A DNA stretch of 64,000 nucleotides from Pedobacter riviphilus (GTDB taxonomy: Bacteria; Bacteroidota; Bacteroidia; Sphingobacteriales; Sphingobacteriaceae): NCBI RefSeq assembly GCF_014692875.1, contig NZ_CP061171.1, positions 3,534,001 to 3,598,000 of the forward strand. Direction: 5' to 3'. Shown here one piece after another: positions 568-56,265 of this stretch (the stretch's first letter is position 1; every line of letters starts with the position of its first letter). A program made the translations under genes and the position numbers. The notes under the pieces were generated by a model that was given only the letters and a program-made list of their open reading frames with translations, ran no database searches and had not been told where the DNA came from.

Positions 568-714
568 TTTTAGAAAAGCAATCTCAGCATTTCAATTAAA
601 GCTAGTCCTGCTTTTGTTCATACGCCTGCAGGCCTTACACACAGGCCGGTATCCACGTCAATCAGGTTTAATAACTAGAGTCAGTTTTTCATAGGCGGAG
701 TTTTCCTTTCCAAA
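568..714 (+). repeat. Dispersed intergenic element, copy A (short form)
   Basis: Lies in the 399-bp gap between porD and blaI. It begins TTTTAGAAAAGCAA, then has GCTAGTCCTGC, a CCTGCAGGCC block, CCGGTATCC and AGGTTTA in the same order as the copies at 40097 and 56148. The right end holds TTTCCAAA, the reverse complement of the left-end core TTTGGAAA seen in other copies. It is about 150 bp and lacks the 3' half found in copies D and E. The rest of the gap shows nothing recognisable until the blaI promoter. Confidence 0.6.
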
Positions 715-800
715 GCCTAATAGGCATGCAACATTCTACCTGCTCATGCGTCTTATATCACAGTTATTAACCAATAAAGTTAAAAATTTGTTAAAATATT

Positions 801-847
801 TTGATCTTACGAATATCTTCGTACATTTGAATACGAAATAATTCGTA
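801..847 (+). promoter_or_regulatory. blaI-M56 promoter with two BlaI-type operators
   Basis: A Bacteroidota-type promoter is visible: TTG at 801-803, an 18-base spacer, and TACATTTG (TAnnTTTG) at 822-829. Two inverted repeats of the form TACGAA-N4-TTCGTA lie at 808-823 and 832-847, with centres 24 bp apart. The first fills the spacer and reaches the -7 box; the second covers the expected start of transcription. Paired dyads across a promoter are the classical arrangement for autorepressing BlaI/MecI dimers, so these are the probable operators of the gene starting at 861. Confidence 0.75.
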
Positions 848-860
848 CAATTTGTAACAT

Positions 861-1232
861 ATGACTAATCATAACATCAAACCAACAGAAGGTGAAATGG
901 AAATCCTCCAGGTGCTTTGGCAAAAGGGGAATGCGACAGTAAGAGAGGTTCATGAAGCACTGAATAAAAAAGACTCTGGCTATACCACAACTTTAAAACT
1001 GATGCAGATTCTGCACGAGAAAGGAATGGTAGAAAGAGATACCAACCAAAAAACGCACATCTATAAAGCGCTTGTTAGTCGGGATAAAACTGAAAAACAA
1101 TTGGTAAACAAAATGATCGATAACGTATTTAACGGATCGGCAGCGAGATTGGTGATGCAGGCTTTGGGTAACCACAGTGCAAGTGCTGATGAAATTGACG
1201 AAATAAAAAAATATTTAGATAGCCTAAAGTAA
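861..1232 (+). CDS. BlaI/MecI/CopY-family transcriptional repressor
   Basis: A 123-residue winged-helix repressor. The N-terminal 'PTEGEMEILQVLWQKGNATVREV' region followed by GYTTTLKLMQ and 'LHEKGMVERD' is the BlaI/MecI helix-turn-helix and wing. The C-terminal half (about 75-123) is the dimerisation helix pair that is cleaved in BlaI systems. It is 95 bp upstream of an M56 peptidase on the same strand, the standard sensor-repressor pairing. The partner protease would relieve repression. Twin palindromes sit directly upstream. No beta-lactamase or PBP gene is nearby, so the regulon probably lies elsewhere or concerns the pair itself. The BlaI family call is firm; the inducer is unknown. Confidence 0.93.
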   Translation: MTNHNIKPTEGEMEILQVLWQKGNATVREVHEALNKKDSGYTTTLKLMQILHEKGMVERDTNQKTHIYKALVSRDKTEKQLVNKMIDNVFNGSAARLVMQALGNHSASADEIDEIKKYLDSLK

Positions 1233-1327
1233 GGTTAGTGTTGAAGGTTGAAAGGTGTAGGGTTTTGATCCCTAATAAACAGTAAAATTTTCGGATTGTC
1301 TCCGTATAAAAAATTAAAATCACCGTT

Positions 1328-3427
1328 ATGGAAACTTTATTACAACAGTTCATCAAAGCATTTGGCTGGAGTATTTTAAACTCACTTTGGCAAAGCGCCA
1401 TCATCTATGGCATCCTATTTATCGTAATGCTAAGCATTCCGAAGCTGGCGGCAAAACACAAGCACAACCTAGCCTTTGGTGCCATCATTTTAATGTTTAT
1501 TGGCTTTGGCTATAATTTCATTCATCAATTAACTTTAAATGCAAATAATCAGCCTCCCGCCATTAATGCACAAAATATACAGGTTTACCAATATTTTAAC
1601 AACCTTCCTCCAAGTTTTAGCAGTAAGGCAGAGCAGTATTTCCCTATAGTAGTCATATTTTATGCCATTGGCATCTTGCTGCAGTTATTCGTTATTATTA
1701 AAGGCTATAGTCAGCTTTCAAAACTTAAAAAAGAAAGTTTAAGCGCTATTCCAGATAGTTGGAAAACCATTTTTGAGCAGGTAATTGCTCACCTTAAAAT
1801 CAACAAAGTTATCCAGTTCCACCTCTCCTCTATTGTTAACGTACCTTTGGTAATCGGTTATTTAAAACCTGTGGTATTATTTCCACTGGCCCTGGTAAAC
1901 CAATTAGACAACGATCAGGTAGAAGCGATATTAATCCATGAGTTATCACACATCAGAAGAAACGATTTCTTATTAAACCTGATTAAAACCGCCATAGAAA
2001 CATTATTATTCTATAATCCATTTGTGTGGATGGCAGGTAGATTTATACATATTGAGCGCGAGCATGCCTGCGATGATCTGGTATTAAAAATTACCGGGAA
2101 ACCGTTGAATTATGCCCATGCCCTACTTAAACTCGAACTATTAAAAGACAAAAACAGTCCGGCTTATGCACTGGCAGCAACAGGCAAGACCCAGAATTTA
2201 TATCAACGCATAAAAAGAATAACCAACATGAAAACAAATTATTTAAACGCCAAACAACAAATGGCAGCCTTAACTTTAGGCGTAGCCTGCTTGTTTTCTA
2301 TTGCTTGGATCAATCCAACGGAAAAGAAAAAAGAAACTAAAAAAACGCCGAAAACTGAGGTTTTGAGTTTGATTAACCACCATAATGTGAAAACCATCGT
2401 TTGCACAGACACCACAAAAAAACGCAAAATTAAAATTGTAACCATTGATGCAGATGGTAAGAAAACAGAGTATAACTCCTTAAAAGAAATGCCTGATAGC
2501 TTAAGAAAAGACTTTTATAGAGATGAACTTTTCGCAGGAAAAAACATTTACAGACTGCATACCGATAGTAATTTTAAATTTAAGTTCAACGATTCGTTAT
2601 TACTGGCCAAAATACATAAAGACTATAATTCTCCGGAAGCGCAAGCTAAGTGGAAAAAATTCGGAGAAGATATGGCCAAACAATATAACTCACCAGAGGC
2701 ACAGGCTAAATGGAAAAAATTCGGTGAAGATATTGCCAAACAATACAATTCGCCGGAAGCACAGGCCAAGTGGAAAAAATTTGGAGAAGAGATGCAAAAG
2801 AAAATGAATTCTCCTGAAGCCCAGGCCAAATGGAAAAAAATGGGTGAAGATATGGCGAAAGAGTTTAGCAGCCCCGAAGCGCAAGCAAAATGGAGAAAGA
2901 TGGGCGAAGAAATATCTGCCAAAATGAATACGCCTGAATTTAGAGCGCAGATCGATAACATCAGGATGCAAGCTTTAAAATCTGGAGATATTGCAAAATT
3001 ATCTGGTTTAAGCAAATTACATACCGATTCTTTATTTAAAACCAAAGGTTACCAGCTTTCTTCAGATGGTGTAATTTTTAAATACAATGATAACTCGAAC
3101 AGTAAGGTGAGACAAACTGAGGAGTATAAAAAATTGAAAGAAAAATTCGACAACGAAGTAAAAGAGCTGAAAGAAAAGTTGGAGAAAAAAGAGAAAAAAG
3201 AAAAGGTAGAAGGTGGTAACAAAAGTTCACAGGTAACTCCCGCAGTAATGTTATACAATAATCAAAATTTTACCAGTGCTGTTAAACCACTGAACACCCT
3301 AAATGCGGTAGTAACGTATAAAAAATCTGATTTTACCAATGCCGATCAAACAGCAATAAAAAGTTATGTTCAGGCCGTTAACTTAAAAGTTGATAATGGT
3401 AATGTAATTAACATTTCGATAAAATAA
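1328..3427 (+). CDS. M56 (BlaR1-like) membrane metallopeptidase with tandem 20-residue repeats
   Basis: A 699-residue sensor peptidase. Residues ~1-310 hold several membrane segments and the zinc motif HELSH at 204-208, with the downstream 'EREHACDDL' block supplying the third ligand, as in BlaR1/MecR1. A last hydrophobic segment near residues 312-327 ('LTLGVACLFSIAW') is followed by a hydrophilic, probably periplasmic part. That part has no penicillin-binding sensor domain. Instead, residues 433-532 are five tandem 20-residue repeats starting Y/M/F-N/S-SPEAQAKW, with a degenerate sixth unit ('MNTPEFRAQ'). A lysine/glutamate-rich, probably coiled segment (~600-640) and a ~60-residue C-terminal module come after. 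It pairs with the BlaI repressor upstream. Peptidase identity is certain; the signal sensed is unknown. Confidence 0.88.
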   Translation: METLLQQFIKAFGWSILNSLWQSAIIYGILFIVMLSIPKLAAKHKHNLAFGAIILMFIGFGYNFIHQLTLNANNQPPAINAQNIQVYQYFNNLPPSFSSKAEQYFPIVVIFYAIGILLQLFVIIKGYSQLSKLKKESLSAIPDSWKTIFEQVIAHLKINKVIQFHLSSIVNVPLVIGYLKPVVLFPLALVNQLDNDQVEAILIHELSHIRRNDFLLNLIKTAIETLLFYNPFVWMAGRFIHIEREHACDDLVLKITGKPLNYAHALLKLELLKDKNSPAYALAATGKTQNLYQRIKRITNMKTNYLNAKQQMAALTLGVACLFSIAWINPTEKKKETKKTPKTEVLSLINHHNVKTIVCTDTTKKRKIKIVTIDADGKKTEYNSLKEMPDSLRKDFYRDELFAGKNIYRLHTDSNFKFKFNDSLLLAKIHKDYNSPEAQAKWKKFGEDMAKQYNSPEAQAKWKKFGEDIAKQYNSPEAQAKWKKFGEEMQKKMNSPEAQAKWKKMGEDMAKEFSSPEAQAKWRKMGEEISAKMNTPEFRAQIDNIRMQALKSGDIAKLSGLSKLHTDSLFKTKGYQLSSDGVIFKYNDNSNSKVRQTEEYKKLKEKFDNEVKELKEKLEKKEKKEKVEGGNKSSQVTPAVMLYNNQNFTSAVKPLNTLNAVVTYKKSDFTNADQTAIKSYVQAVNLKVDNGNVINISIK
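2624..2923 (+). repeat. Five in-frame 60-bp repeats inside the M56 gene
   Basis: Five consecutive 60-bp units encode SPEAQAKWKKFGE-type 20-mers. Units 1 and 2 differ at nine bases, of which eight are silent, so the peptide rather than the DNA is conserved. Each unit has Pro-Glu near the start, an invariant Trp and a K/R-K-F/M-G core, consistent with an amphipathic helix and turn. Confidence 0.9.
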
Positions 3428-3454
3428 CAACACATAAACCAAACAGATCATGAG

Positions 3455-3487
3455 CAGCGAAGATTATTCTTCGCTGTTTTTGTTTTG
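3455..3487 (+). terminator. Intrinsic terminator after the blaI-M56 pair
   Basis: A perfect 9-bp stem (CAGCGAAGA with TCTTCGCTG) around a 4-base loop, followed by TTTTTGTTTTG, lies 28 bp after the M56 stop. It should separate the pair from recN. Confidence 0.8.
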
Positions 3488-3526
3488 TATGCACCTGTTG
3501 AATAAATTTTAATATTTTTGCTTAGC

Positions 3527-5179
3527 ATGCTACAAAAACTTTCTATACGTAATTACGCATTAATTGATAGTCTCGATATCGAATTCGATAAAGGCTTAAA
3601 TATTATAACTGGTGAAACAGGAGCTGGTAAATCTATCATTTTAGGAGCGTTATCGCTAATTTTAGGACAGCGGGCAGAAAGCAAATACTTTTTTAACCAG
3701 GATAAAAAATGTGTTATTGAAGGAAGTTTTGCACTGGAAGATGAAAACCTGAAAGAACTTTTCGAAGAAAATGATTTAGATTTTGCAAACGAAAGTATTT
3801 TACGTAGAGAGATATCCATAGATGGTAAAACCAGATCGTTTATTAACGACACCCCGGTTAATTTATCAATCCTTAAACAAATTGGCGAAAAGCTGATCGA
3901 TATCCATTCTCAGCATGCCACCCAGGAGATTAACGATGCCGATTTTCAATTGTTAATTGTCGATTCTTTAGCTAACCACCAGTCGCTATTGTTTAATTAC
4001 CGCAGCGGGTTTAAAAAGCTAAAGCAAGAAATTAACCAGTTGAAGAAATTAGTGAGCGAGGCAGACGAGGCAAGAAATAAGCAAGATTATGAGCAGTTTC
4101 TATTTAATGAACTCGAGCAGGCAAAACTACAAGATGGTGAACAGGAAGATTTAGAGCAAGAGTTAGAACGTTTAACGCATGCCGAAACCATAAAAAGAGC
4201 ATTACTTACCGCTTCGGGCTTAATTAACGAAAGTGAACCATCTGCCCTTCAGATTTTAAAAGAAGCTTCCTTACAACTACAGAATATAGAAAAATTCGAT
4301 CCTGCAATTAATGTGCTGTACGAACGTTTACGCTCATCAATTATCGAAATAAAAGATATTACCGACGAGGTTTCTGGCATTGAAGAGAATACCATACACA
4401 GTGCCGATCGGTTAGAAATTGTAAACCAAAGGTTGGATCTGTTTTATACCCTTCAGCAAAAGCACCGGGTTGCTAATAATACCGAATTACTGGTACTTCA
4501 AAAACAATTGGAAGAGAATCTTAACAAACTGTTATCTTCTGATGAGCATATAGAAAAACTACAGAAAGAAATAGATCAACTTAATAAAGAATTGCATAAA
4601 CAGGCCGAGCAATTAAGTGCCAACCGAAAGAAAGCAATTAAAATGGTTGAGGAACAGACCCGTATTACTTTGAAACAGGTAGGTATGCTTAATGCTAAAT
4701 TGGTGTTAGAACAAAAAAGCTTGAACGAATTGAATAAAGATGGATTGGATGAAATCAACCTACTCTTTACAGCCAATGCTGGCCAAGCCCCTGCCCCGGT
4801 AAATAAAGTAGCATCTGGTGGTGAATTATCACGGCTGATGTTAGCCATAAAAGCTTTATTGGCCAAACATACTTCGTTACCAACCATTATTTTCGATGAG
4901 ATTGATACCGGGATTTCTGGCGAGACCGCTTTAAAAGTTGGAGAAGTAATTGCCGATTTAGGCCAGAACATGCAGGTAATTTCGATTACACACCTACCAC
5001 AAATTGCCGCCAAAGGCATATCGCATTACTTTGTTCACAAAAATGAAGACCGTGGAAAAACCACAACCGGCATTCGTAAACTTAAACAAGAAGAACGTAT
5101 TGGTGTTATTGCCGAAATGTTAAGTGGTAAAAACCCGGGTACATCGGCTATAGAAAATGCACGGGAGTTGCTCGCTTAG
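3527..5179 (+). CDS. recN: DNA repair ATPase RecN
   Basis: A 550-residue SMC-like ATPase of double-strand-break repair. Walker A is GETGAGKS at 29-36. A long coiled-coil middle follows, then the signature VASGGELSRL and Walker B 'LPTIIFDEIDTG' near the C-terminus, ending in the usual 'MLSGKNPGTSAIENARELL'. The ATG at 3527 is preferred over an in-frame TTG at 3518 because TATTTTTG (TAnnTTTG, 3513-3520) sits just before it. With only six bases between that box and the ATG, the transcript would be leaderless or nearly so, but no good -33 TTG was found at the usual distance. recN near porD is a common Bacteroidota arrangement. Confidence 0.96.
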   Translation: MLQKLSIRNYALIDSLDIEFDKGLNIITGETGAGKSIILGALSLILGQRAESKYFFNQDKKCVIEGSFALEDENLKELFEENDLDFANESILRREISIDGKTRSFINDTPVNLSILKQIGEKLIDIHSQHATQEINDADFQLLIVDSLANHQSLLFNYRSGFKKLKQEINQLKKLVSEADEARNKQDYEQFLFNELEQAKLQDGEQEDLEQELERLTHAETIKRALLTASGLINESEPSALQILKEASLQLQNIEKFDPAINVLYERLRSSIIEIKDITDEVSGIEENTIHSADRLEIVNQRLDLFYTLQQKHRVANNTELLVLQKQLEENLNKLLSSDEHIEKLQKEIDQLNKELHKQAEQLSANRKKAIKMVEEQTRITLKQVGMLNAKLVLEQKSLNELNKDGLDEINLLFTANAGQAPAPVNKVASGGELSRLMLAIKALLAKHTSLPTIIFDEIDTGISGETALKVGEVIADLGQNMQVISITHLPQIAAKGISHYFVHKNEDRGKTTTGIRKLKQEERIGVIAEMLSGKNPGTSAIENARELLA

Positions 5180-5432
5180 TTTATCAATCGGGCGTCACCT
5201 TGATTTCATTTCGGGGTCTTGTCATTTGTAAATTTACTGCTAGATTTTACCATTTGGCTATAAGACATATTAATTCCATGGCCTATATCACCACAGGACC
5301 ATCTAGAATTCAATAGTATTTAGCCGTCTGTAAGGACACAGACCATGACGATAGACCGAAAAATTTCAAAAAGCACTAATAATTTTACATCCGCGCCTTA
5401 TTAAAACTAACAAATTAGTTTATATTTAAATA
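5180..5432. repeat. recN-to-5433 gap with a degenerate CGTCAT-type repeat
   Basis: CGTCACCTTGATTTCATTTC at about 5194 and ACCATGACGAT near 5342 resemble the decayed ends of the second intergenic repeat family seen more clearly at 10605, 40466 and 48209. The match is weak. No gene or terminator is evident. Confidence 0.3.
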
Positions 5433-6674
5433 ATGAAATCTTTTATACTTCTACTTTCATTATTAATCATCGGTAACTTTTGTGCTGCTCAACAAAGTTA
5501 TATTCTTTCGGGTATAGTTAAAGATAAACGGGGTGAGGCTTTACCCGGTGCAGGCGTATATGTAAGTGGTTATAAAATTGCGACCGTTTCTAACAATGAT
5601 GGTAGTTATAGCCTACCGCTAAAACCTGGCAATTACGATATTTTGGCACAGCTTATTGGCTATAAAGCGCTAAATAAAAACGTTATTATTTCAGACAAGG
5701 CCATAAAACTCGATCTGATTTTGGAAGAAAGCATTACCCAATTAAATGAAGTAACCATTAAGCCAGATCCGAACAGGGAACATTATATTGCCATGTTCAA
5801 AGATTTTTTTATTGGTACAACACCAAATGCCGCGCAATGTAAAATGATTAATCCAAATGTGCTGATGATCGATTACGATCAGGACAATGCTTTACTTACT
5901 GTAAAATGCAACCAGTTTCTCATCATCGAAAATAAGGCATTGGGCTACCGAATCAAGTACCTGGTTAATAATTTCGAGTACAGCCGTAAAACCAACATTG
6001 TTTATTACCAGGGCTTTCCTACCTACGAAGATTTAAAAGGTTCTAAGCACAAAAAGGAAGTTTGGAATAAAATGCGTTTAACAGCCTACCTTGGCTCTCC
6101 CCAGCATTTTTTTAAATCGTTATACCATAAAAAGGTCACCGAAGAAGGTTTTATCATCAACAAATTAAAAAGTATCCCTAATAGCAACAGGCCCAAAGAC
6201 AGCCTAATTAATGCCAATATCAGGCGATTTACCCAGGCTCAAACCTTTACAGGTAATATTCACCTCACCATGGGCGATTCGCTAAATTACTGGATCAAAA
6301 AGAAAAATCTACCTAAGGAGGTTTCGGTATTGAGCAAAGTTCCTGTGTTGCAGGATACACTGGCCAGACTAACAACCGAACCTGCCATTCAGGAAATTAA
6401 TTTTACTGATAAACTTTATGTGGTTTATACTAAAGAGCCCGAGAATCCCGCATTTACAGGAAGGATTGGTTTCGCTATTAGCAGGCCACCCGATTATTTT
6501 GGCTATCAGGTATCAACTATCACCTTACAGCAACCTCCTATTTATTTTTACGAAAACGGAGGCATTTACAACCCGCGATCGATGCTTTTTTCGGGCTATT
6601 GGGCCTGGGAAAAAATAGCGGATAGCGTGCCGATGGATTATTTACCTCCTGCTAATTTAGAAGAGAAAAAGTAG
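5433..6674 (+). CDS. Secreted carboxypeptidase-regulatory-like domain protein (copy 1)
   Basis: 413 residues. A signal peptide (MKSFILLLSLLIIGNFCAAQ) precedes a CarboxypepD_reg-like beta-sandwich at ~23-110 ('GIVKDKRGEALPGAGVYV...GYKA'), the domain common at the start of Bacteroidota outer-membrane proteins. The remainder (~115-413) has conserved blocks 'FKDFFIGTTPNAAQCKMINP', 'ENKALGYRIKY', 'YLGSPQHFFKSLY', 'EEGFIINKL' and 'FYENGGIY'. These match its neighbour at 7165 closely but no enzyme family I recognise. It is not a TonB receptor: there is no plug and the protein is too short for that barrel. Likely periplasmic or outer-membrane-associated; role unknown. Confidence 0.8.
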   Translation: MKSFILLLSLLIIGNFCAAQQSYILSGIVKDKRGEALPGAGVYVSGYKIATVSNNDGSYSLPLKPGNYDILAQLIGYKALNKNVIISDKAIKLDLILEESITQLNEVTIKPDPNREHYIAMFKDFFIGTTPNAAQCKMINPNVLMIDYDQDNALLTVKCNQFLIIENKALGYRIKYLVNNFEYSRKTNIVYYQGFPTYEDLKGSKHKKEVWNKMRLTAYLGSPQHFFKSLYHKKVTEEGFIINKLKSIPNSNRPKDSLINANIRRFTQAQTFTGNIHLTMGDSLNYWIKKKNLPKEVSVLSKVPVLQDTLARLTTEPAIQEINFTDKLYVVYTKEPENPAFTGRIGFAISRPPDYFGYQVSTITLQQPPIYFYENGGIYNPRSMLFSGYWAWEKIADSVPMDYLPPANLEEKK

Positions 6675-6725
6675 AAATGGCATCAGCCCGATTTAAAGCA
6701 CAACTACGGTAGATTATTTTTTTCC

Positions 6726-6976
6726 TTTTTTTGGAAAGCAGGCAGTGCTATTGGGTTCAAACGGTCCCGCATTTCGTTACAAATCCTTGCCTTCATGCTT
6801 CAGGCAGGGGTTTAGCTGGCAATACCAGTAATACTATTCAGGTACCATGCAAACCTACCTTTGTTAAATAAACGCGACAGAGCGGGTAGCCCACAGTGAA
6901 GCCTAGCGTAACGAGGACTACAAGCGATGGCGGGACTGCTCTAGCCATGAAAAACAGGCCTTTCGTTTTCAGAAAA
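6726..6976 (+). repeat. Dispersed intergenic element, copy B
   Basis: In the 490-bp gap between the two paralogues. It opens TTTTTTTGGAAAGCA, then GGTCCCGC and GGGGTTTA. A diverged 3' half contains GCGGGTAGC, AACGAGGA and AAGCGATGGCGGG, in the order of the CCGGTAGC / CACGAGG / AAGCGGATAACGGGG blocks of copies D and E. The right end near TTTTCAGAAAA is indistinct. Confidence 0.5.
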
Positions 6977-7029
6977 CAATATTTGCTATTCACTTGACCT
7001 ATTTTAATCAAATTCCCTTCTTAAAGATC

Positions 7030-7092
7030 TTTCGATGCACTCAGGATTACAAATTGTATTAGCCCGCTCTCAGCTCAAAATGACGATTATTT
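7030..7092. repeat. Partial CGTCAT/ATGACG-type repeat
   Basis: Ends GCTCAAAATGACGATT, the reverse complement of the left end of the repeat at 10605 (AATCGTCATTTTGAGC). The opposite arm is not clear, so this looks like half of a unit. Confidence 0.4.
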
Positions 7093-7164
7093 GCAAATGT
7101 TAAATTTGTTAAAAATCTTTTGCGTTTTTAATAAATATTACGCCTTTTGGTTACATTCGTCTCT

Positions 7165-8399: not shown

Positions 8400-8451
8400 A
8401 CGAATGAAGTTGCTAGTGAAAATAAAAATGTTGAAAAGTAGGCATTCGTAG

Positions 8452-10731: not shown

Positions 10732-10742
10732 TTAGTTTTAGA

Positions 10743-34215: not shown

Positions 34216-34222
34216 CAGAAAA

Positions 34223-34277
34223 GCTTTGACAAATTTCTTAGTCTAATGCTAGAAATTTGTCAAAGCCGATCTTTTTT
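34223..34277 (+). terminator. Terminator after ykuK-like gene
   Basis: A perfect 16-bp stem (GCTTTGACAAATTTCT at 34223-34238 and its complement at 34251-34266) with a 12-base loop, followed shortly by CTTTTTTAT. Confidence 0.85.
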
Positions 34278-34292: not shown

Positions 34293-34420
34293 TTTTTTTT
34301 TGGAAAGCAGTTTCAGTAGCTTTTGATTATTGTAGTCCCGCTCCCGCTTCTGCCGATGAAATATCGGCATCTCGCTCTGATCGGGTTTAGGGGGCTTAAA
34401 CAGTGCAGCTATCCGGGGTA
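34293..34420 (+). repeat. Dispersed intergenic element, copy C
   Basis: Starts TTTTTTTTTGGAAAGCAG, continues with TGTAGTCCCGCTCCCGC, a nested GCCGAT/ATCGGC hairpin and CGGGTTTAG. It matches the first ~110 bp of the element; the 3' half is missing. It lies just after the ykuK terminator. Confidence 0.6.
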
Positions 34421-39736: not shown

Positions 39737-39974
39737 TTTTTTTTAGAAAATCAACACCTGTGTTTCACTTTCATGTCAGGCCCGCCACAGGTACCTGGCA
39801 GGTCTTACACCCTGACCGGTATTTGCCATGTCGGGTTTAGAATAAGCTGTTACCTGCACAAATCTAAGTTAACTAAACCCGGTAGCAGCGAGCACGAGGC
39901 AATAGTTCATTGCCGAAGAAAAGCGGATAACGGGGCTTTCGGAACCTATTGATGCAGAACCCTGATTTTCAAAA
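39737..39974 (+). repeat. Dispersed intergenic element, copy D (long form)
   Basis: About 238 bp, 85-90% similar by eye to copy E. In order: TTTTTTTTAGAAAA, CCCGCCACA, GACCGGTATTTGCCATGTC, GGGTTTAGAATAAGCTG, TTAACTAAACCCGGTAGC, the stem GGCAAT-AGTTC-ATTGCC (39898-39914), AAGCGGATAACGGGGCTTTC, and a decayed right end TTTTCAAAA. CGGGTTTA and TAAACCCG form an outer stem. Confidence 0.75.
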
Positions 39975-40029: not shown

Positions 40030-40056
40030 TTTAGGGTTTAGGGTTTAGGGTTTAGG
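40030..40056. repeat. TTTAGGG heptanucleotide repeat
   Basis: About 3.9 tandem units of TTTAGGG lie between element copies D and E. This is a likely slippage-prone microsatellite with no coding context. Confidence 0.9.
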
Positions 40057-40096: not shown

Positions 40097-40339
40097 TTTT
40101 TTTAGAAAAGCAAAACCTGTGGTTCTTCGCAGTGCCAGTCCCGCCACATGCTCATACGCCTGCAGGCCTTAGGCGCGGGGCCGGTATCCGCCATGTCGGG
40201 TTTAAAATAAGCTGTTACCTGCACAAACCTAAGCTAACTAAACCCGGTAGCTGCGAACACGAGGCAATAGTTCATTGCCGAAGTAAAGCGGATAACGGGG
40301 CTTTCGGAACCGATAGATACCAACTCTTGCTTTTCAAAA
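40097..40339 (+). repeat. Dispersed intergenic element, copy E (long form)
   Basis: About 243 bp and the best-preserved copy. The left end TTTTTTTAGAAAAGCAA is mirrored at the right by TTGCTTTTCAAAA (40327-40339), a terminal inverted repeat with one inserted base. The interior has CAGTGCCAGTCCCGCC, CCTGCAGGCC, GGCCGGTATCCGCC, ATGTCGGGTTTA ... TAAACCCGG, the stem GGCAAT-AGTTC-ATTGCC (40263-40279) and GGATAACGGGGCTTTCGG. No transposase is encoded. Confidence 0.8.
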
Positions 40340-40440: not shown

Positions 40441-40465
40441 CCGTAATAAATTCTTCATCTCGTAC

Positions 40466-40531
40466 CGTCATCCTGAACTTGTTTCAGGATCTATCCTATC
40501 ACTAAGATGCTGAAACAATTTCAGCAGGACG
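40466..40531. repeat. CGTCAT...GACG inverted repeat, compact copy
   Basis: CGTCATCCTGAACTTGTTTC at the left and AAACAATTTCAGCAGGACG at the right form a nearly complete inverted repeat of ~22 bp around a short centre. It would fold into a long hairpin after the permease gene. Confidence 0.8.
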
Positions 40532-40544
40532 ACCCTGGCTAATC

Positions 40545-48480: not shown

Positions 48481-48496
48481 CGTTACATTATATCGA

Positions 48497-48640
48497 CGTC
48501 ACCCTGACCTGTAGCGTAGCGGAAAGCTGCGAAGTAAATTTATTTCGAGATCTATTTTACAGGAAAAATGCTGACCACGTAGTAGCTACAAGACCATTGA
48601 AAACACTACTTCTACTTGTAAAACAAGTTCAGCATGACGA
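48497..48640. repeat. CGTCAC...ATGACG repeat copy, expanded
   Basis: Left end CGTCACCCTGACCTGT, right end TTGTAAAACAAGTTCAGCATG then ACGA. The 144-bp unit has a longer centre than the copy at 40466. Confidence 0.6.
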
Positions 48641-48746
48641 TCGCTTTGAGAAAGCACGTTAAAAAATGATCGTTATAAATAAAAATTAATCGAACTCAGG
48701 TTAATAAGTCACTTGATCTTAAAATCGCAGAATCCCTTAATCTTGG

Positions 48747-49916
48747 CTATTCCTGACCTTTTTTAATCAACCTCGCTACAAACATCGTATCGGCGTTATT
48801 TTCATAACCTTTAATCAGTTCCATTTTTTCCAGCTCTAGCGGCAACTGCTCAATCATATGCTGCACAATGGCTTCGTTTTCTTCGGCAAAGGCGGAGCAG
48901 GTAATATAAATTAAAGGCTTACCAGGCTTTAAATATTTTACAATATTTTGGACGATCCCCCTTTGGATGTTTGCAAATTGATTGATTTTCCGTTCCTCAA
49001 AAAACGTAAGCATTTCGGGTGTTCTGCCCCATGTTCCGGAACCTGTACAAGGCGCATCCAAAATGATCCCATCAAATTGATAGTGGTGTAAAACCTGATC
49101 GTTGTTCTGTAAAAGATCTAGCTCTTTTTTATGGTATTTTTTGATCCCGGCTAAGCGGAAACGTTCATCTAGATTTAAGAGTATACTTTCTCTCAGATCG
49201 GAAACCAAAAGCTCGATAACAGGCTCCAAACTGTGCAAAAGCAATGTTTTTCCACCTGATGCCGCACAGCAGTCCCACCATTTATCCCATTTGTTAGGTT
49301 TAAAATAATGGCCCGTATGCTGAGAAGATAAATCCTGAACCTGGTAACTGCCTTCTTTTAAAACAGTTTCGAGCCTGGTTCCATTGGGCAAGGCTAAAGC
49401 AGTTGGAGAAATAGCTTTAACCTCAATTTTTTCATCTTCTAATTTGGAGATGATGCTTGCAGATTCGTCGGCTCCTACCCTAATAAACAGATCGGGCTGT
49501 TTGAAGAATGAGGTATAAAATGCCTCCCGGTCTAATCCATCAGATAGATTTGCATGAAACGGATATATCTCCTGAAAATTAAAATCCGGATACTTCGTTT
49601 TGATAATGGATATTTTTTCTTCAAGCTGCAGCGTAATGCTTTCTTTTAGTTCCGGCAAATTTTTCTCCACAATAAGGCTAAGCGTATCGTGGCACAAGAA
49701 ATCGGCAATACTCAAACGTTCTTCCTGTGGAAGCCCTGATAAAGCCTTACCTAATCTAAAAAAGCTATATATATGACGCGTGGCCCATCTCCTATCAGAT
49801 GATCCCATTTGTTTATGTTGCTTAAAATAGGTCGGTAAAAAACGATGTAAGGGCAAACTTCCATCATAATTATTCAAAATCTGTTCAAAGGCTCTTAATT
49901 GATGATCTGCTCTCAT
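48747..49916 (-). CDS. RsmB/NOL1-type RNA m5C methyltransferase
   Basis: 389 residues. The C-terminal Rossmann domain has a degenerate SAM loop 'WWDCCAASGGKTLLL', motif IV 'IILDAPCTGSGTWGRTPEML' and motif VI 'LIYITCSAFAEENEA', giving the two Cys (PC and TC) used by RNA cytosine-5 methyltransferases. The N-terminal ~150 residues ('DHQLRAFEQILNNYDGSLPLHRFLPTYF') are helical and resemble the RsmB/NusB-like region. The target is probably rRNA, but the exact base is not predictable. Confidence 0.9.
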   Translation of the reverse strand: MRADHQLRAFEQILNNYDGSLPLHRFLPTYFKQHKQMGSSDRRWATRHIYSFFRLGKALSGLPQEERLSIADFLCHDTLSLIVEKNLPELKESITLQLEEKISIIKTKYPDFNFQEIYPFHANLSDGLDREAFYTSFFKQPDLFIRVGADESASIISKLEDEKIEVKAISPTALALPNGTRLETVLKEGSYQVQDLSSQHTGHYFKPNKWDKWWDCCAASGGKTLLLHSLEPVIELLVSDLRESILLNLDERFRLAGIKKYHKKELDLLQNNDQVLHHYQFDGIILDAPCTGSGTWGRTPEMLTFFEERKINQFANIQRGIVQNIVKYLKPGKPLIYITCSAFAEENEAIVQHMIEQLPLELEKMELIKGYENNADTMFVARLIKKGQE

Positions 49917-49951
49917 GCAATAATTAAAATGGAAGAAAAATAAATATAGAA

Positions 49952-51163
49952 TTACTCAACTATGTTTAACGCAAAGTTTTTAAACTTCAATAACATTAAA
50001 CTGGTGTTAATATAGCCTAATTTTTCATCATGGATAAATGAAAAGTTATTATGAAGACCTTTATATTTATCTTTTATCAGATAATCTCTATAATCCTCTC
50101 CGTATGTGGTTAACAGTTTACCGAAGTAGTAGCCAACATCAAAGCCCTTAAAAGCATATTCTCCAGGCTCAAATCCGTATCTGTAGCGATATTTTTTAAC
50201 AAAGGCAATAACTGCGCTGCTTTTGTAGTCTATTTTATAAGAAGAGCTGATAATCGTATTCAGATCCTGTAATTTATCGGTAGGATAATTCTGTTTTACC
50301 CAGTGAGGATGGCCAAACAGATTAATACTATAACCACCTGTAGGTAAATGCTTTAATTTATACAGTTTTTCTACTGTTGGCAATACAAAAGCCCTGTCAG
50401 ATGAGGTAAGCACCACTACATACTCTTTACCTTTGATCATTTTTGTTTCAAAAGCATAGGCCGAAGCGTACTCCTGTACCACAAACTTGGTATTGCTTTG
50501 AAAATAGTTCCTTATCGGTGCTGCAAACTGTTCGTCTTCTGTTTTCTTAGGGTTAATCAACACCACTATGGTATTAGCAGGATTATAATTTTTAGCAATA
50601 TATGTAGCTATCTTTTTTCCATGCAAGCCAATATTATTTACAATGGACACCAGATTTGGATTATTAAATTCAGCAGGTTCGGAAGCGGCCAGAGGAGATA
50701 CAATAATTGCATTATTTTCTTTGGCATAATTGGCGATAAACTTTAATCCATCAGGAAAAACGGGGCCAATAATTAAATTGCTTTGTTTAAACCGCTCATT
50801 TTTGTACAGGAGCGATATATGTGCATTATCATCTTGCGTATCGAAAACATTCAGTTTAAAATTTAAGCCCTGGGCCGCTGCAGAATCCAATCCCAATTTA
50901 AAACCCTGATAGAAATCAATAGGCATGGCATATTTCTCGATATCGGCTTTTGTGGCTGTTTTTAAATTCAGTTCATCCAATTTAAAGGGAACGAGCAGAG
51001 AAATACTTGCCTGCGAAAACTTTTTGATAGGCTTTTTATCTGCTGGCTTTTCTTTTTCAACAGGTTTACCGGCTTCGGGCTTGGGTGTCCTGATTTTAGG
51101 CGAACAAGCACCCAAAACTACCGCAAACAAAACCAGCAATCCATAAACCTTCTTGAAATTCAT
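49952..51163 (-). CDS. Periplasmic-binding-protein type 1-like lipoprotein
   Basis: 403 residues from ATG 51163; signal peptide with Cys20 (VLGAC). A Pro/Lys-rich linker (~25-52) is followed by a PBP1 fold: 'SISLLVPFKLDELN', 'DFYQGFKLGLDSAAAQGLNFKLNVFDTQDD', 'SNLIIGPVFPDGLKFIANYAKENNAIIVSPLAAS' and 'YAFKGFDVGYYFGKLL'. This resembles ABC amino-acid receptors and LpoA-like activators, but no transporter genes adjoin. In Bacteroidota related proteins often carry LysM domains; none is present here. It lies 36 bp upstream of the m5C methyltransferase gene and may be co-transcribed with it. Role unknown. Confidence 0.78.
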   Translation of the reverse strand: MNFKKVYGLLVLFAVVLGACSPKIRTPKPEAGKPVEKEKPADKKPIKKFSQASISLLVPFKLDELNLKTATKADIEKYAMPIDFYQGFKLGLDSAAAQGLNFKLNVFDTQDDNAHISLLYKNERFKQSNLIIGPVFPDGLKFIANYAKENNAIIVSPLAASEPAEFNNPNLVSIVNNIGLHGKKIATYIAKNYNPANTIVVLINPKKTEDEQFAAPIRNYFQSNTKFVVQEYASAYAFETKMIKGKEYVVVLTSSDRAFVLPTVEKLYKLKHLPTGGYSINLFGHPHWVKQNYPTDKLQDLNTIISSSYKIDYKSSAVIAFVKKYRYRYGFEPGEYAFKGFDVGYYFGKLLTTYGEDYRDYLIKDKYKGLHNNFSFIHDEKLGYINTSLMLLKFKNFALNIVE

Positions 51164-51184
51164 ACCTATCATTTTTAACAAAAT

Positions 51185-51217
51185 ATGCTAGCAAAGGTTA
51201 TTCCACCTTGCTAGCAT
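51185..51217 (-). terminator. Hairpin downstream of guaA
   Basis: A 10-bp arm ATGCTAGCAA (51185-51194) with complement TTGCTAGCAT (51208-51217); on the minus strand it is followed by ATTTTGTT. It lies 68 bp after the guaA stop. Confidence 0.6.
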
Positions 51218-51284
51218 CACATTTATTTTATGCAGTTTGGACTGAAAACTCCAAACTGAAAACTCCCAACTCAAAACTAAACAA

Positions 51285-52814
51285 CTATTCCCACTCAATA
51301 GTTGCAGGTGGTTTAGAGCTGATATCGTATACGACTCTATTGATGCCTTTAACTTTATTGATGATTTCGTTTGAGATTTTAGCCAATACCGGATAAGGTA
51401 GGTGGCACCAATCTGCCGTCATTCCATCAAGCGATTCTACAGCTCTTAGTGCAATTACATTTTCGTAAGTACGTTCATCGCCCATTACCCCAACAGATCT
51501 CACGGGTAAGAAGATAGCGCCTGCCTGCCATACTTTATCATAAAGGCCTGCTTCTTTTAAATTGTCTATATAAATTTTATCGGCATCTTGTAAAATGGCT
51601 ACCTTTTCTGGGGTAACCTCTCCAATAATGCGGATACCTAAACCTGGTCCTGGAAATGGATGACGGCCTAAAATAAACGATTCTAAACCTAAAGTGGTAC
51701 CTACTCTTCTTACTTCATCTTTAAACAAAGTTTTAAGTGGTTCTACTACTTTAAGTTTCATGAAATCTGGCAAACCGCCCACATTATGGTGCGATTTAAT
51801 AGTTGCAGATGGACCTTTAACCGAAACCGACTCAATAATATCTGGGTAAATTGTACCTTGGGCCAACCACTTTACATCTTGAATAAGGTGAGATTCTTCA
51901 TCGAAAACTTCGATAAACACACGGCCAATAATTTTACGTTTTGTTTCTGGATCTTCTACTCCAGCCAACTGACCCAAGAATTTGTCTTTAGCATCAACGC
52001 CTTTAATATTTAAGCCAAAATCTTTGTATTGCTCTAAAACACTTTCATATTCGTTTTTACGCAATAAACCGTTATCAACAAATATACAGTGTAGGTTTGT
52101 GCCAATAGCTTTATGCAAAAGCACTGCAGCTACGCTACTATCAACACCACCTGAAAGCGCCAGAACAACTTTATCGTTACCTACAGTAGCTTTAATATCG
52201 GCAATTGTAGTTTCAACAAAAGCAGCAGAAGTCCAGTCCTGGCTACATCCGCAGATATCAACCAAGAAGTTTTCTAAAAGGATTTTTCCATCAATACTGT
52301 GCGTTACCTCAGGGTGAAATTGGATCGCATAAGTATCAGAATCTTTGATGTGATATGCTGCTACTTTTACACTATCGGTACTGGCAATCAATTCAAAGTT
52401 TTCAGGAATATCGGTAATGGTATCGCCATGGCTCATCCAAACTTGCGAGTCGATGTTTATGCCTTTAAATAATTTGTTCTCCTGGTTTACAAAATTCAAA
52501 TTAGCACGGCCGTACTCGCGTGTTGAAGATGGCTGAACCGCACCACCCGAATGTTGGGCAATATATTGTGCACCATAACAAACAGCCAATAATGGATATT
52601 TTAAATGGTATTTCGATAAATCGATTTGAGGTGCATCTTCCTGACGGACAGAATAAGGACTACCCGAAAAAATAACCCCTTTTACGTCAGGTGTAACCTC
52701 AGGAAGATTGTTGTATGGATATATTTCACAGTAAATATTTAATTCGCGAACCCTACGAGCGATGAGTTGTGTAAATTGCGAACCAAAATCGACGATAATG
52801 ATTTTTTCTTGCAT
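51285..52814 (-). CDS. guaA: GMP synthase (glutamine-hydrolysing)
   Basis: 509 residues from ATG 52814; a longer in-frame start runs into the promoter. The N-terminal glutamine amidotransferase has nucleophile Cys79 in '[13 protein letters not shown]' and '[12 protein letters not shown]' for the His-Glu pair. The ATP-pyrophosphatase domain has the PP-loop [10 protein letters not shown], and the C-terminal dimerisation domain ends '[10 protein letters not shown]'. It converts XMP to GMP. TACCTTTG (52825-52818, minus) ends three bases before the ATG, so the transcript may be leaderless, although no -33 TTG is at the standard distance. Confidence 0.98.
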
Positions 52815-52985
52815 CCGCAAAGGTACCAATTAGATATGAGATTTGAAGCCGGAGATTTGAGATTTTTAGCGGAAAAAGTCCGAAGCTGGCAGTCAGGAGT
52901 CCAAAGTCAAATATGGGGAGATAACTCAAGGAAACGAGCATCCATCTTAATATCAATTATTCGATCAAGCATTACGAGTTATAAG

Positions 52986-53183
52986 CTAAATTAGACCAAG
53001 TAGTTCCTCATCAGTCATGGCAAAATCTCCTCTGAAAATCACTTGAGCTTTTCCATCAAGTAGACCTATTTTTCTTTTTTTACCATTTTTAGATTTTTTA
53101 GAAACAAAATAATTGATGATTTCATTTCTCTTCCAATAACCGAAAACGATTCCTACACCTACAATTAAAAAAACCTTATTCAT
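52986..53183 (-). CDS. Small hypothetical membrane-anchored protein
   Basis: 65 residues. One N-terminal hydrophobic helix (VFLIVGVGIVFGYW) is followed by a basic cytoplasmic-type stretch (KKSKNGKKRK) and an acidic end (DFAMTDEELLGLI). No family recognised. It lies alone between dCMP deaminase and guaA on the same strand. The frame on the other strand partly overlapping it is a shadow. Confidence 0.5.
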   Translation of the reverse strand: MNKVFLIVGVGIVFGYWKRNEIINYFVSKKSKNGKKRKIGLLDGKAQVIFRGDFAMTDEELLGLI

Positions 53184-53357
53184 TTAGGTAAAGTACGAAA
53201 ACTATTTAACCTTATCAATCATGTATTTTTTTCGTTTATGAATTAGCGGCCCCTTACTCTTAAACTTGCGAAGCTCTCCCCTGCTTTCCCTCTGTGAAAC
53301 TTTGTAAGGCACCACACTATTCACCAATGAACCGATGACAAGTAAACTAATGAACCT

Positions 53358-53816
53358 CTACGATTCTATCAAAACCACCTCGACACCAAATTTTCTTAAA
53401 AAATCTACGCCTTCGTCGCTAGGCAAACCTTTGTAAGCTGCATAAGATTTAGAATAGTATACCAGTTTGATTCCTGAAGATAAAATTAAACGGGCACAGG
53501 CAATACAAGGCGACAAGGTGGTGTATAAAGTACATCCTTCTATCCTCGATCCATTTTTTGAGGCATACAGTATGGCATTTTCCTCAGCATGTAAAGCCAA
53601 AGAACAACTTCCTTTACTATCGCGGGCACAGCCATGCTCTGGCCATTCCTCGTCACAGTTGTGGGTACCGGCCGGCGGACCATTGTAACCGATAGAAATT
53701 ATGCGCGTATCTTTTGTTAACACTGCACCTACATGGGCACGCACACAATGTGAGCGGGCAGCCAAATCGGTGGCCAGGTTCATAAATATCGAGTCGAAAC
53801 TTGGTTTATCTGTCAT
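53358..53816 (-). CDS. dCMP deaminase (ComEB-like)
   Basis: 152 residues from ATG 53816. The zinc site is H76-A-E in 'LALHAEENAILYAS' and 'SPCIACA' (Cys104, Cys107). The extra 'GYNGPPAGTHNCDEEWPEHGCARDSKGSC' insertion is characteristic of deoxycytidylate deaminases rather than cytidine deaminases. It produces dUMP for thymidylate synthesis. It lies upstream of the 65-residue gene on the same strand. Confidence 0.93.
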   Translation of the reverse strand: MTDKPSFDSIFMNLATDLAARSHCVRAHVGAVLTKDTRIISIGYNGPPAGTHNCDEEWPEHGCARDSKGSCSLALHAEENAILYASKNGSRIEGCTLYTTLSPCIACARLILSSGIKLVYYSKSYAAYKGLPSDEGVDFLRKFGVEVVLIES

Positions 53817-53825
53817 TATAAAAAT

Positions 53826-53859
53826 TAAAAAAGCCACAAAGAACTAAATCTCTGTGGCT
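53826..53859 (-). terminator. Terminator of the sugar MFS gene
   Basis: AGCCACA (53832-53838) pairs with TGTGGCT (53853-53859), with partial inner pairing; on the minus strand it is followed by TTTTTAATTTT. Confidence 0.65.
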
Positions 53860-53880
53860 GTAAAATTACTTTATTAAAAA

Positions 53881-55317
53881 TTAATGTCCACCAGAAATTT
53901 TCTCATCAAAATTAATTCCCTGTGTCTTCAAAATGGCACTTCCTTTAATTGCATAAAATGCAAGGTATGCAAAACACAGCACCCCAACTAAGTAACTGTA
54001 TTGGATACCTGTAAACTTTGAAAGGTATCCTTGCGCTAAACTCACAATACCACCGCCCATAATCATCATAATTAAAAAACTACTTCCCTGACTGGTGTGT
54101 TTACCTAAGCCACTAACAGCCAAAGTAAAAATACATGGCCACAATGTACTGCAGAATAAACCCACGCTAGTAAACGCGTAAACACTAGTCATACCTGTAG
54201 TAAACATACCAATAAATAAGGCTATAATGCCCATTACCGAAAAAATTAATAGCATGCGCGCCGGGTTTCCTTTACTGGCCATATCGGCACCAATTAATAC
54301 AACTATTACTGCTGCATATACATAAAATGGTGTTAAATCGTGTTTAGCGATAGCATTTGCAACTAAGAAAACACCAAAAGCTAAATAAGGTGCTACAAAT
54401 CTCAATATCTTTTGTAAGGTCATATCTTCAGTAAAAGCTTCTACCGCCCCTGTCCAACGACCAATCATTAAACTAGCCCAATATAAAGAAACATATGGAG
54501 CAATATCTTTAATGGCAAATCCTAATTTCTCTTCCATATATGCGGGTAAATTACTGGCAGTAGATACCTCTACACCAACATATAGAAAAATAGCAATCAT
54601 TCCCAGTACCAACTGCGGGTAATTCAAAGCAGATCCCTTAATCGATTTAGTATCATTTGCTGAAGCTTCTACTAAAGTAGGTCGATCAGGCAAAGACGAC
54701 ATTTTTAAAAATACAGCTACTAAAAGAAAGGCTACTCCTAATATTAAATATGGAATTTTTACACTTTCGATGCTCACATTGGTAGTAGCGCTTGTAGCAA
54801 CACCAAAAATAGCGAAGTTTACCAATAGTGGACCAATGGTTGTACCAAAATTATTAATACCACCTGCAAGTGTTAAACGTTGTGAACCAGTTTTAATTGG
54901 CCCCAAGGCAATAGCTAAAGGATTTGCAACAGTTTGTTGTAAAGAGAAACCCAGGGCAACAATAAACAAGCCAGATAACATTAACGGAAATGAGTGCAGA
55001 TTTGCTGCCGGGTAAAACAAAAGCGTTCCGGCTGCCGAAATAACAAGCCCCAAAGCTAAAGAGTTTTTGTAGCCTAATTTATTTACAATATCCTGGCCCA
55101 TTACTACCGAAATGCCATTATAAATTAAAGCGCCAACCGTATATGCAATGTAAAATGCAAATGATACCAACTGGCTTTGAAATTGAGTTAAATTAAAGGC
55201 CTGCTTAAATACCGGTATTAAAATATCATTACTGGCGGCCACAAAGCCCCAGAAAAAGAATACCGTGACCAAAGGAATAAATTGCCCCCATTTGGTTTGT
55301 GTTTGTTCTGAACTCAT
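53881..55317 (-). CDS. FucP/GluP-type sugar MFS transporter
   Basis: 478 residues, 12 membrane segments. The start 'FIPLVTVFFFWGFVAASNDILIPVFKQAFNLTQFQSQLVSFAFYIAY' matches L-fucose and glucose/galactose:H+ symporters, including the Asn-Asp of 'ASND' in the first helix. 'LQQTVANPLAIALGP' and 'RLTLAGGINNFGTTIGPLL' are further family marks. Imports a hexose or deoxyhexose by proton symport; the exact sugar is unknown. Divergent from the LysE-type gene, with short motifs in the shared gap. Confidence 0.92.
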   Translation of the reverse strand: MSSEQTQTKWGQFIPLVTVFFFWGFVAASNDILIPVFKQAFNLTQFQSQLVSFAFYIAYTVGALIYNGISVVMGQDIVNKLGYKNSLALGLVISAAGTLLFYPAANLHSFPLMLSGLFIVALGFSLQQTVANPLAIALGPIKTGSQRLTLAGGINNFGTTIGPLLVNFAIFGVATSATTNVSIESVKIPYLILGVAFLLVAVFLKMSSLPDRPTLVEASANDTKSIKGSALNYPQLVLGMIAIFLYVGVEVSTASNLPAYMEEKLGFAIKDIAPYVSLYWASLMIGRWTGAVEAFTEDMTLQKILRFVAPYLAFGVFLVANAIAKHDLTPFYVYAAVIVVLIGADMASKGNPARMLLIFSVMGIIALFIGMFTTGMTSVYAFTSVGLFCSTLWPCIFTLAVSGLGKHTSQGSSFLIMMIMGGGIVSLAQGYLSKFTGIQYSYLVGVLCFAYLAFYAIKGSAILKTQGINFDEKISGGH

Positions 55318-55379
55318 TTTTTAAATTTAGTTTTAGTGGCTCTAAACATAAATAAAAAAAAATGAAAACCAGTAATTTT

Positions 55380-55432
55380 ATGCAACCTATGCAACAAAAA
55401 TAAATGTTATATGTTTAGGTATAAAGTTGCAT
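55380..55432. promoter_or_regulatory. ATGCAAC motif cluster in the MFS/LysE divergent gap
   Basis: ATGCAAC occurs at 55380 and 55389 (9 bp apart) and its reverse complement GTTGCAT at 55426. Clustered identical heptamers in a 142-bp divergent promoter region suggest an operator, though chance is not excluded. Confidence 0.35.
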
Positions 55433-55459
55433 ATTCGCATATTATAAACAATACAATGC

Positions 55460-56086
55460 ATGTTTGAAGCCATATTACTCGGTATAGGAGCAGGGATTAT
55501 TTCGTCGTTTTTAACTGGGCCGGTATTTTTTGCAATGATCAAAACTAGCATAGAAAGGGGCTTCAAAGCTGGGTTTTCTTTAGCTATTGGCGTAATTATT
55601 AGTGATGTGATCTTAATTGGCCTGGTTCTTTTTGGTAGCCAGTTTGTTGATTATAAAGCCGAATTTGATAAATACGTTGGCAGCATTGGCGGTGTATTTC
55701 TGCTTGCAGTGGGTATTTATTACCTGCTTTCTAAAATTACCGTACATTACGATAGCACCACGCTTCAAAAAGTGAGTAAACGGGGTTATGTACTCAAAGG
55801 TTTTTTAATGTGCATCCTCACTCCTTCTACCCTCATGTTCTGGATTATTGTAAGTGGGATCATTTCGGTTAAATTGAACAATATGCTGAACGAAAAATTA
55901 GTTTGCTTTTTTATCGCCATGGCTACTCAATTAAGCATCGATGGAGCAAAGAGCTTTTACTCCAGTAAACTCCGTTATAAAATAAAAGAAGATGCACTGA
56001 AGAAACTCAATAAAATAGCCGGGGTAGTGATTATCTTTTTCGCCTTCTGGCTCATTATTAAAACCTACCTGAAGTTTTACGCATAA
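55460..56086 (+). CDS. LysE/RhtB-type amino acid exporter
   Basis: 208 residues, about six membrane segments. 'LGIGAGIISSFLTGPVFFAMIKTSIERGFKAGFSLAIGVIISD' is the LysE/RhtB N-terminal signature (G-P-x-x-F x12 G). 'GGVFLLAVGIYYLL' and 'GFLMCILTPSTLMFWI' correspond to later conserved helices. Expected to export an amino acid or similar small solute. Convergent with purF. Confidence 0.88.
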   Translation: MFEAILLGIGAGIISSFLTGPVFFAMIKTSIERGFKAGFSLAIGVIISDVILIGLVLFGSQFVDYKAEFDKYVGSIGGVFLLAVGIYYLLSKITVHYDSTTLQKVSKRGYVLKGFLMCILTPSTLMFWIIVSGIISVKLNNMLNEKLVCFFIAMATQLSIDGAKSFYSSKLRYKIKEDALKKLNKIAGVVIIFFAFWLIIKTYLKFYA

Positions 56087-56147
56087 AAATTGAACAGACT
56101 CAGTACATTAATGTCTGATGTACGCTGTACCTTTGAGGTTAATATTA

Positions 56148-56265
56148 TTTTTTGGAAAGCAACAGCACTGCTCCTATTAAACGCTAGTCCTGCCAATGCT
56201 GCATTCCTCACCCGATAAAAGATCGGGTTCCGGGCTTTCCGCGAATGTCAGGTTTAGATTAGGGA
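56148..56265 (+). repeat. Dispersed intergenic element, copy F (5' half)
   Basis: Starts TTTTTTGGAAAGCAACAGCA, then ACGCTAGTCCTGCCAATGC, an inner GATAAAAGATCGGG hairpin, CCGGGCTTTCCGCG and AATGTCAGGTTTAG. It matches the first ~115 bp of copy E; the 3' half is absent. It lies between convergent lysE-type and purF genes. Confidence 0.65.

Follow-up and report, generated by a model that had tools for sequence, protein, structure and literature searches.

Six intergenic sites in a 64,000-nucleotide (nt) stretch of the Pedobacter riviphilus chromosome (the window; bases 3,534,001–3,598,000 of a 5.83-Mb single-contig genome) share ordered sequence blocks, and a preliminary description proposed that they form either a miniature inverted-repeat transposable element (MITE) or a structured RNA. 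What is this element, and does it act as DNA or as RNA? We found that its repeat unit is one arm of approximately 90–130 nt, and that two-armed copies consist of two inverted arms. The arms are kin of the Rfam family Flavo-1 and members of a Flavo-1 superfamily. With confidence just short of even, we favour the reading that the arm is a DNA hairpin repeat of this superfamily, resembling repetitive extragenic palindromic (REP) sequences, that would have been spread as folded single-stranded DNA (ssDNA) by an enzyme acting in trans.

Repeat arms in the window

A sequence-only profile of 100 positions, referred to as R1, was constructed from 17 arms of the same genome (left halves and reversed right halves). 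R1 detected nine arms at the six window sites, with E values of 2.4e-15 to 2.5e-4; the arms at 34298, 40101, and 56150 are training rows (3 of 17), and the remaining six had no part in the training. All six sites carry the family as proposed, but the family is not limited to these copies (see below), and all nine arms lie between called open reading frames (ORFs), in agreement with the intergenic location originally described. The features in the window are as follows.

569..670, + strand: single arm; its basal stem is the CCTG/CAGG version (R1 E 8e-9)
6727..6975: two-armed copy; left arm 6729-6797 on the + strand and right arm 6869-6963 on the - strand (E 7.8e-7 and 3.8e-6)
34296..34389, + strand: single arm (R1 34298-34389; E 2.4e-15, training row)
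39737..39974: two-armed copy; left arm 39742-39839 on the + strand and right arm 39874-39974 on the - strand (E 2.5e-4 each)
39898..39914: hairpin tip GGCAAT-AGTTC-ATTGCC in the right arm of the 39737 copy
40097..40339: two-armed copy, tandem neighbour of the 39737 copy; left arm 40101-40204 on the + strand (E 1.6e-10, training row) and right arm 40239-40339 on the - strand (E 2.2e-6)
40263..40279: hairpin tip GGCAAT-AGTTC-ATTGCC in the second tandem copy (40097)
56148..56256, + strand: single arm with a nested hairpin in the tip (R1 56150-56256; E 2.1e-14, training row)

Two long forms (39737 and 40097) had been distinguished previously, but the copy at 6726 is also two-armed, giving three two-armed and three one-armed copies; in the 6727..6975 copy, whose outer limits were set by eye, the left and right ends differ in type. 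Among the blocks listed as shared, TTTTTTNGAAAGCA is exact at three of the six sites but by itself is not above chance in the window (16 occurrences with up to two mismatches versus 10.7 expected; 8 of 100 shuffles were as high), and CCGGTATCCGCC is exact at the 40097 copy only. Genome-wide, TTTTTNGAAAGCA was counted 33 times and its backwards control 4 times, some of the 33 occurrences not being elements by eye. A left arm, read 5' to 3', comprises TTTTTTGGAAAGCA, approximately 25 variable bases, AGTCCCGC, a further stretch, the hairpin tip, another stretch, and TCGGGTTTA, and right arms are the reverse complement of this pattern. GTTTA/TAAAC is the near-invariant foot of the arm.

Fold and covariation of the arm

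From 204 arms of this genome and related Pedobacter loci, 146 were retained after the removal of those with fewer than 70 aligned positions or at least 85% alike. Mutual information, calculated for the 146 arms without a preset structure, revealed nested pairs: columns 46-88 are paired in 97% of arms (AT 55, TA 44, CG 19, and GC 18 of 142), columns 42-92 in 96% (CG 84, TA 41, and GC 6), columns 45-89 and 51-83 in 95% each, and columns 50-84 in 77%. When eight stem pairs were counted with a fixed structure in 71 arms of this genome (70 distinct, one arm having been entered twice), 93.4% of the cells were paired versus 76.3% in shuffles, and 98 cells were double-changed versus 23.8 in shuffles, neither value being reached in any of 500 shuffles; the best slid-register control was 54.2% paired. 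Two measures of covariation were unremarkable, namely the both-side-changed pairs (6; reached by 16 of 500 shuffles) and the further pair types (14; 351 of 500). The stems that covary strongly are located inside each arm; between the two arms of a copy, only the outer 12 bases match better than they do between copies.

The fold also contains conserved mismatches. Columns 44-90 are never paired (CT 121, TC 17, CC 3, and TT 1 of 142), and TC occupies columns 47-87 in 110 of 142 arms and CT columns 49-85 in 76 of 127. On the complementary strand these mismatches are A.G and G.A, generating two GNA/GNA loops, a motif that forms sheared G.A pairs in both RNA and DNA. Read on the Flavo-1 strand, the folded arm starts with a CCCG/CGGG helix at its base, followed in order by an A.G mismatch, a run of two base pairs, a 3x3 GNA/GNA internal loop, two further base pairs, another loop of this type, and a hairpin tip that varies between arms. 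Covariation can arise by mutation alone, through template switching inside palindromes; because template switching would mend mismatches and not swap CT for TC, the exchange at columns 44-90 argues for recognition of the folded strand.

Relationship to Flavo-1

The preliminary description assigned the element to no named family, which was incorrect for the arm. At a permissive threshold, Rfam returned six Flavo-1 (RF01705) matches in three other stretches (L122, L129, and L131; 60 kb), scoring 47.7 to 31.2 bits against a cut-off of 42 (E<=0.011), one above the cut-off and one just under it (41.9). All six lie on R1 arms, of which these stretches contain nine, and have the orientation of a right arm. 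At least 18 Flavo-1 matches were found in the genome as a whole (best E 1.5e-13). The window copies gave no Flavo-1 match up to E 10 and nothing relevant at the Rfam gathering score. In both Flavo-1 RNA and the arms, the basal stem is followed by an A.G mismatch, then by two 3x3 loops, and finally by a variable hairpin tip. They differ in that the Pedobacter arms also occur as inverted pairs with T-rich inverted ends and as tandem arrays, in that the window copies are too diverged for the Rfam model, and in that the evidence favours DNA over RNA.

Flavo-1 matches at E<=0.001 were present in 38 of 247 genomes drawn from the phylum, corresponding to 21 of 121 genera, and a closed genome of a Flavo-1-rich genus, probably Flavobacterium, contains 41 at E<=0.01. 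At E<=1e-5, R1 arms were detected in 11 of 19 genomes of the same genus; 12 genomes from other genera had none. The five Pedobacter genomes that were reached through loci all carry R1 arms, and at least two of them (AK013 and P. terrae) had already been counted, with identical hit coordinates.

Strand and gene context

Membership in an Rfam family that the table in Weinberg 2010 lists as 'RNA? probably, cis-regulatory: probably not' (PMC2864571), together with a strong fold showing covariation, would suit transcribed arms that act as small RNAs (sRNAs) or as elements of untranslated regions. Wobble pairs in the tips provide a measure of strand preference. The tips of 142 non-redundant arms contain 74 G.T pairs versus 67 A.C mismatches, near-equal numbers being expected if neither strand is privileged; in 13 distinct tRNAs from the loci analysed, the numbers were 21 and 0 (ARAGORN structures, which allow G.T). 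An RNA-like ratio, 9 G.T versus 2 A.C, was observed in 30 copies of the Flavo-1-rich genome, a small set chosen by an RNA model.

The orientation of the arms is symmetrical with respect to genes. The 62 clusters comprise 35 between co-directional, 13 between convergent, and 14 between divergent genes (56, 21, and 23%), close to the 61, 16, and 23% of a room-weighted background, and single arms between co-directional genes are in sense and antisense equally often (12 each). In the Flavo-1-rich second genome, 8 copies have the same and 9 the opposite orientation, and 5 of 30 centres lie inside a called ORF. According to a published transcriptome from another genus, Flavo-1 matches are sense or antisense alike and many are outside transcribed regions, with no consistent strand or transcription (PMC9723704). 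The suggestion of a structured RNA is in keeping with the kinship with Flavo-1 and the fold, but the random orientation and gene context, the symmetric wobble, the published transcriptome, and the inverted pairs and arrays make it rather improbable.

With respect to replication, 61 of 101 one-strand clusters in the list of at least 150 arms are on the lagging strand (p 0.046), the origin being assumed near base 1 from GC skew. Such an excess, marginal as it is, would fit single-strand processing. In the second genome, the GC skew of the 30 loci was too noisy to place the origin.

Copy number and distribution in the genome

A genome-wide search with R1, the check that had been proposed for the six copies, yielded many more: at least 150 arms, all with E <=1.6e-5. 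As a contiguous unselected sample, 1.26 Mb of the chromosome (3.00-4.26 Mb, with 2 kb missing) was used, which holds 6 of the 17 training rows. A hidden Markov model (HMM) of the same arms identified 76 arms at E<0.01 in this sample, 44 of them at <1e-6, and none up to E 10 in the same sequence reversed. The iterated HMM identified 90 arms at E<0.01 and 99 at E<1, again with none in the reversed sequence. By extrapolation, the whole genome would contain approximately 400 arms. As judged by a simple ORF caller, 89 of the 90 arms in the sample are outside called ORFs. No arm was found in a 228-kb region (3092705-3321039) in which approximately 11 clusters were expected from the sample. The GC content of this region is 40.4 versus 38.0%, and the few ORFs inspected could be accessory; the region is perhaps younger DNA that was never colonised.

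Inverted pairs and arrays

Only a single arm is detectable in 43 of the 62 clusters. In inverted pairs the arms are separated by approximately 35-105 bases, and tandem arrays have periods of approximately 200 to 400 bases. Terminal inverted repeats are present on some two-armed copies and not on one-armed copies, and the right ends, as classified by eye, are of several types. A single large cruciform formed by pairing between the two arms was considered and rejected: overall, 42 inverted pairs are not more alike within than between copies, some single columns (such as 18, 34, 48, and 83) being more alike within a copy and others less. Among 24 non-redundant pairs, arm similarity was 0.519 within versus 0.541 between copies (965 of 1000 permutations as high), whereas the similarity of the outer 12 bases was 0.839 within versus 0.798 between copies (7 of 1000 permutations), this being the only one of six tested stretches that is more alike within copies. 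The two ends of one copy may accordingly co-evolve, which its arm bodies do not.

These data bear on the proposal of a classical MITE, in which a cut-and-paste transposase would read the TTTTTTGGAAAGCA inverted ends. Dispersal, two-armed copies with inverted ends, and the matched outer 12 bases agree with it, but the prevalence of clusters with one detectable arm, the several types of right end, the lack of co-evolution between arm bodies, and the lack of a target-site duplication in the comparison described below do not, and we regard this reading as improbable.

History of the copies among relatives

The one window protein used as a query matched Pedobacter relatives at up to 98% identity, as expected of a Pedobacter host. 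The site at 39.7-40.3 kb was compared with 47 relatives, of which 31 have both flanking genes <2 kb apart; the other 16, including L241 with six arms, were left out. One to four arms are present in 21 of the 31 syntenic relatives and none in 10 (E 0.01). For the one-armed copy at 34293, both flanking genes are in order in 20 relatives, of which only Pedobacter sp. AK013 has the arm; in some arm-free relatives a further gene lies between the flanking genes.

In the comparison with AK013 (92.6% identity over 201 kb), 20 of 22 clusters were placed by their flanks. Detectable arms were present in AK013 at 15 of these, remnants were recognized by eye at two (3631527 and 3698326), and three were judged by flank distance only, which is not shorter in AK013. 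Target-site duplications and empty orthologous sites had been named as tests of the MITE proposal; among the 20 placed clusters, neither a duplication nor a cleanly empty site was found.

Twelve ortholog arms were aligned with those of AK013 and compared by eye: six have a largely different or shortened tip (3530794, 3608645, 3797284, 3802454, 3802594, and 3076507) and six have the same tip. Of five site pairs tested for tip hairpins, 3802594 was the only one at which both tips beat shuffles at 0.05 (0.04 and 0.02 of 100), one or both tips failing to do so at 3802454, 3076507, and 3797284. Both tandem copies in the window carry the GGCAAT tip, of which the 1.26 Mb holds no further occurrence; at the same position, another hairpin is present in AK013, P. 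borealis, and Pedobacter sp. Bi126. The shuffle test gave 0.09 for the tip in the window and 0.06 for that in AK013. Closely related species thus differ in their tips, and the replacement of one hairpin by another is suggested rather than proven. GTCAT-type palindromes were also found inside hairpin tips of arms.

The main rival to a mobile hairpin repeat is a host DNA site. The folded or extruded arm would in this case be kept by selection for a chromosome function, such as binding a protein of the nucleoid, of replication, or of repair, and the copies would at present be immobile. The persistence of arms at orthologous sites (21 of 31 relatives at 39.7-40.3 kb and 15 of 20 clusters in AK013), the survival of pairing through sequence change across copies, and the immaterial orientation to genes are all consistent with such a site. 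The distribution of the arms is nevertheless patchy: 8 of the 19 genomes from the genus lack them at E 1e-5, and the 228-kb region is arm-free. Two ortholog arms have decayed, and the arrays and the insertions in tips look like repeat dynamics. We consider the host site unlikely on this evidence, and infer the mobility of the arms from their dispersal, patchiness, and arrays.

Several other features were noted in the window. A terminator-like long hairpin, GCTTTGACAAATTTCT...AGAAATTTGTCAAAGC followed by T-rich DNA, is located at 34219-34265, directly before the 34293 arm, and a telomere-like (TTTAGGG)n microsatellite whose length varies between species (relatives L238-L240) is located beside the copies, at 40030-40056; TTTAGGGTTTAG was counted 16 times in the 1.26 Mb. 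A second repeat family, CGTCATCCTGAACTTGTTTCAGGATC / GATGCTGAAACAATTTCAGCAGGACGA, occupies 40464-40535, and 17 copies of its relative TTCAGCATGACG are present in the same sample.

Search for an enzyme

Among the first 19 genomes of the genus, all 11 arm carriers have a short Y1_Tnp ORF (approximately 180-214 amino acids), and the 8 non-carriers have no Y1_Tnp or, in two cases, a fragment. Such a co-occurrence would be expected if RAYT (Y1) transposases encoded in these genomes moved the arm as a REPIN-like element. However, at E 0.05 no arm lies within 900 bp of any of 34 RAYT-profile ORFs, the smallest distance being 946 bp; at E 10, one weak arm match (E 0.14) lies 872 bp from such an ORF. 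The 34 ORFs include one split gene, truncated ORFs, and at least one IS200-like ORF, and three targeted genes that the profile did not match fall outside this measurement. The hairpins beside RAYT-type genes, inspected by eye in 20 of the 34 flanks, have other sequences than the arms and differ between genes, and four genomes (G168 of the same genus, G114, G232, and G248) have at least 18 Flavo-1 matches and no Y1_Tnp match. RAYT was rejected as the driver, and a REPIN-like origin is very improbable.

The hairpins around the RAYT-type Pedobacter genes belong to various families, CTAGCGCAAGCGTCCCGCTTGTG and GTCGTAGCGAGACGCTACGAC being examples, and some form arrays. Compared by description, these hairpins fit the account of subclass 2.6 TnpA-REP of Bacteroidetes, in which atypical hairpins flank the genes and have copies elsewhere in the genome (PMC6006769). 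The arms resemble the subclass 2.6 hairpins in phylum, non-canonical form, and dispersed copies, and differ from the RAYT-adjacent hairpins found here in sequence; a link between the arms and subclass 2.6 is possible. A short REP family of the GTCATTTCGA type was also rejected as a companion of RAYT genes, with 3 matches in the 34 flanks (0.089 versus 0.034 per kb in the sample). No driver gene bracketed by arms was recognized in the 1.26 Mb, in which the genes in the seven inter-cluster gaps of <3 kb look ordinary.

Comparison with known repeat systems

The arms share with attC sites of integrons a structure that is kept while the tip varies, and mismatches in the folded strand. Like REP sequences, bacterial interspersed mosaic elements (BIMEs), and REPINs, they are numerous intergenic imperfect palindromes with conserved mismatches that occur as singles, inverted doublets, and arrays; the Escherichia coli REP requires its mismatch bulge (PMC8266576). 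They differ from these systems in size (approximately 90-130 nt versus 20-40; PMC3733652), in the variable tip, in the lack of a GTAG or CGTC foot, and in not lying beside RAYT genes. Within the limited coverage of the literature searched, we found no description of the paired form or of Flavo-1 as mobile DNA, and recognized no Pedobacter repeat family of a matching kind.

Proposed mode of spread and its significance

According to the reading that we favour, the arm acts at the DNA level, and its folded single strand would most likely be recognised by a trans-acting enzyme, as for REP/BIME. This enzyme would have spread and amplified the arms through an ssDNA intermediate. Arms in Pedobacter are found alone, in inverted pairs with TTTTTTGGAAAGCA or a variant of it at their ends, and in local tandem arrays. 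Most copies would now be old residents, with tips changing by recombination or template switching.

Several observations weigh against this reading. No enzyme was found, and the obvious Y1/RAYT candidate fails. With no clean empty site among the 20 placed clusters and arms at 15 of these in AK013, recent transposition is not shown. In the 71-arm alignment of this genome, the TC rows at columns 44-90 come from three loci only. The pair 51-83 is T.G in 26 of 142 arms, a hint of one preferred strand, and the wobble counts of the Flavo-1-rich genome point the same way. The lagging-strand bias is one marginal test, and the outer ends matched within copies suit a two-ended element better than a single-arm unit.

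In Rfam, Flavo-1 is a probable sRNA without known function. It is possible, though we put this forward only tentatively, that Flavo-1 is no RNA family but a Bacteroidota-wide family of mobile ssDNA hairpins with a G.A-mismatch recognition code, an exchangeable tip, and a non-RAYT enzyme. If the arms are DNA hairpin repeats, many annotated 'sRNA genes' in Bacteroidota would be repeats, and the covariation seen here, a feature commonly regarded as proving that an RNA is functional, would have arisen from DNA-level structure. In that case, the repeats would also point to a reader of folded DNA containing conserved G.A mismatches, either an enzyme or a host factor.

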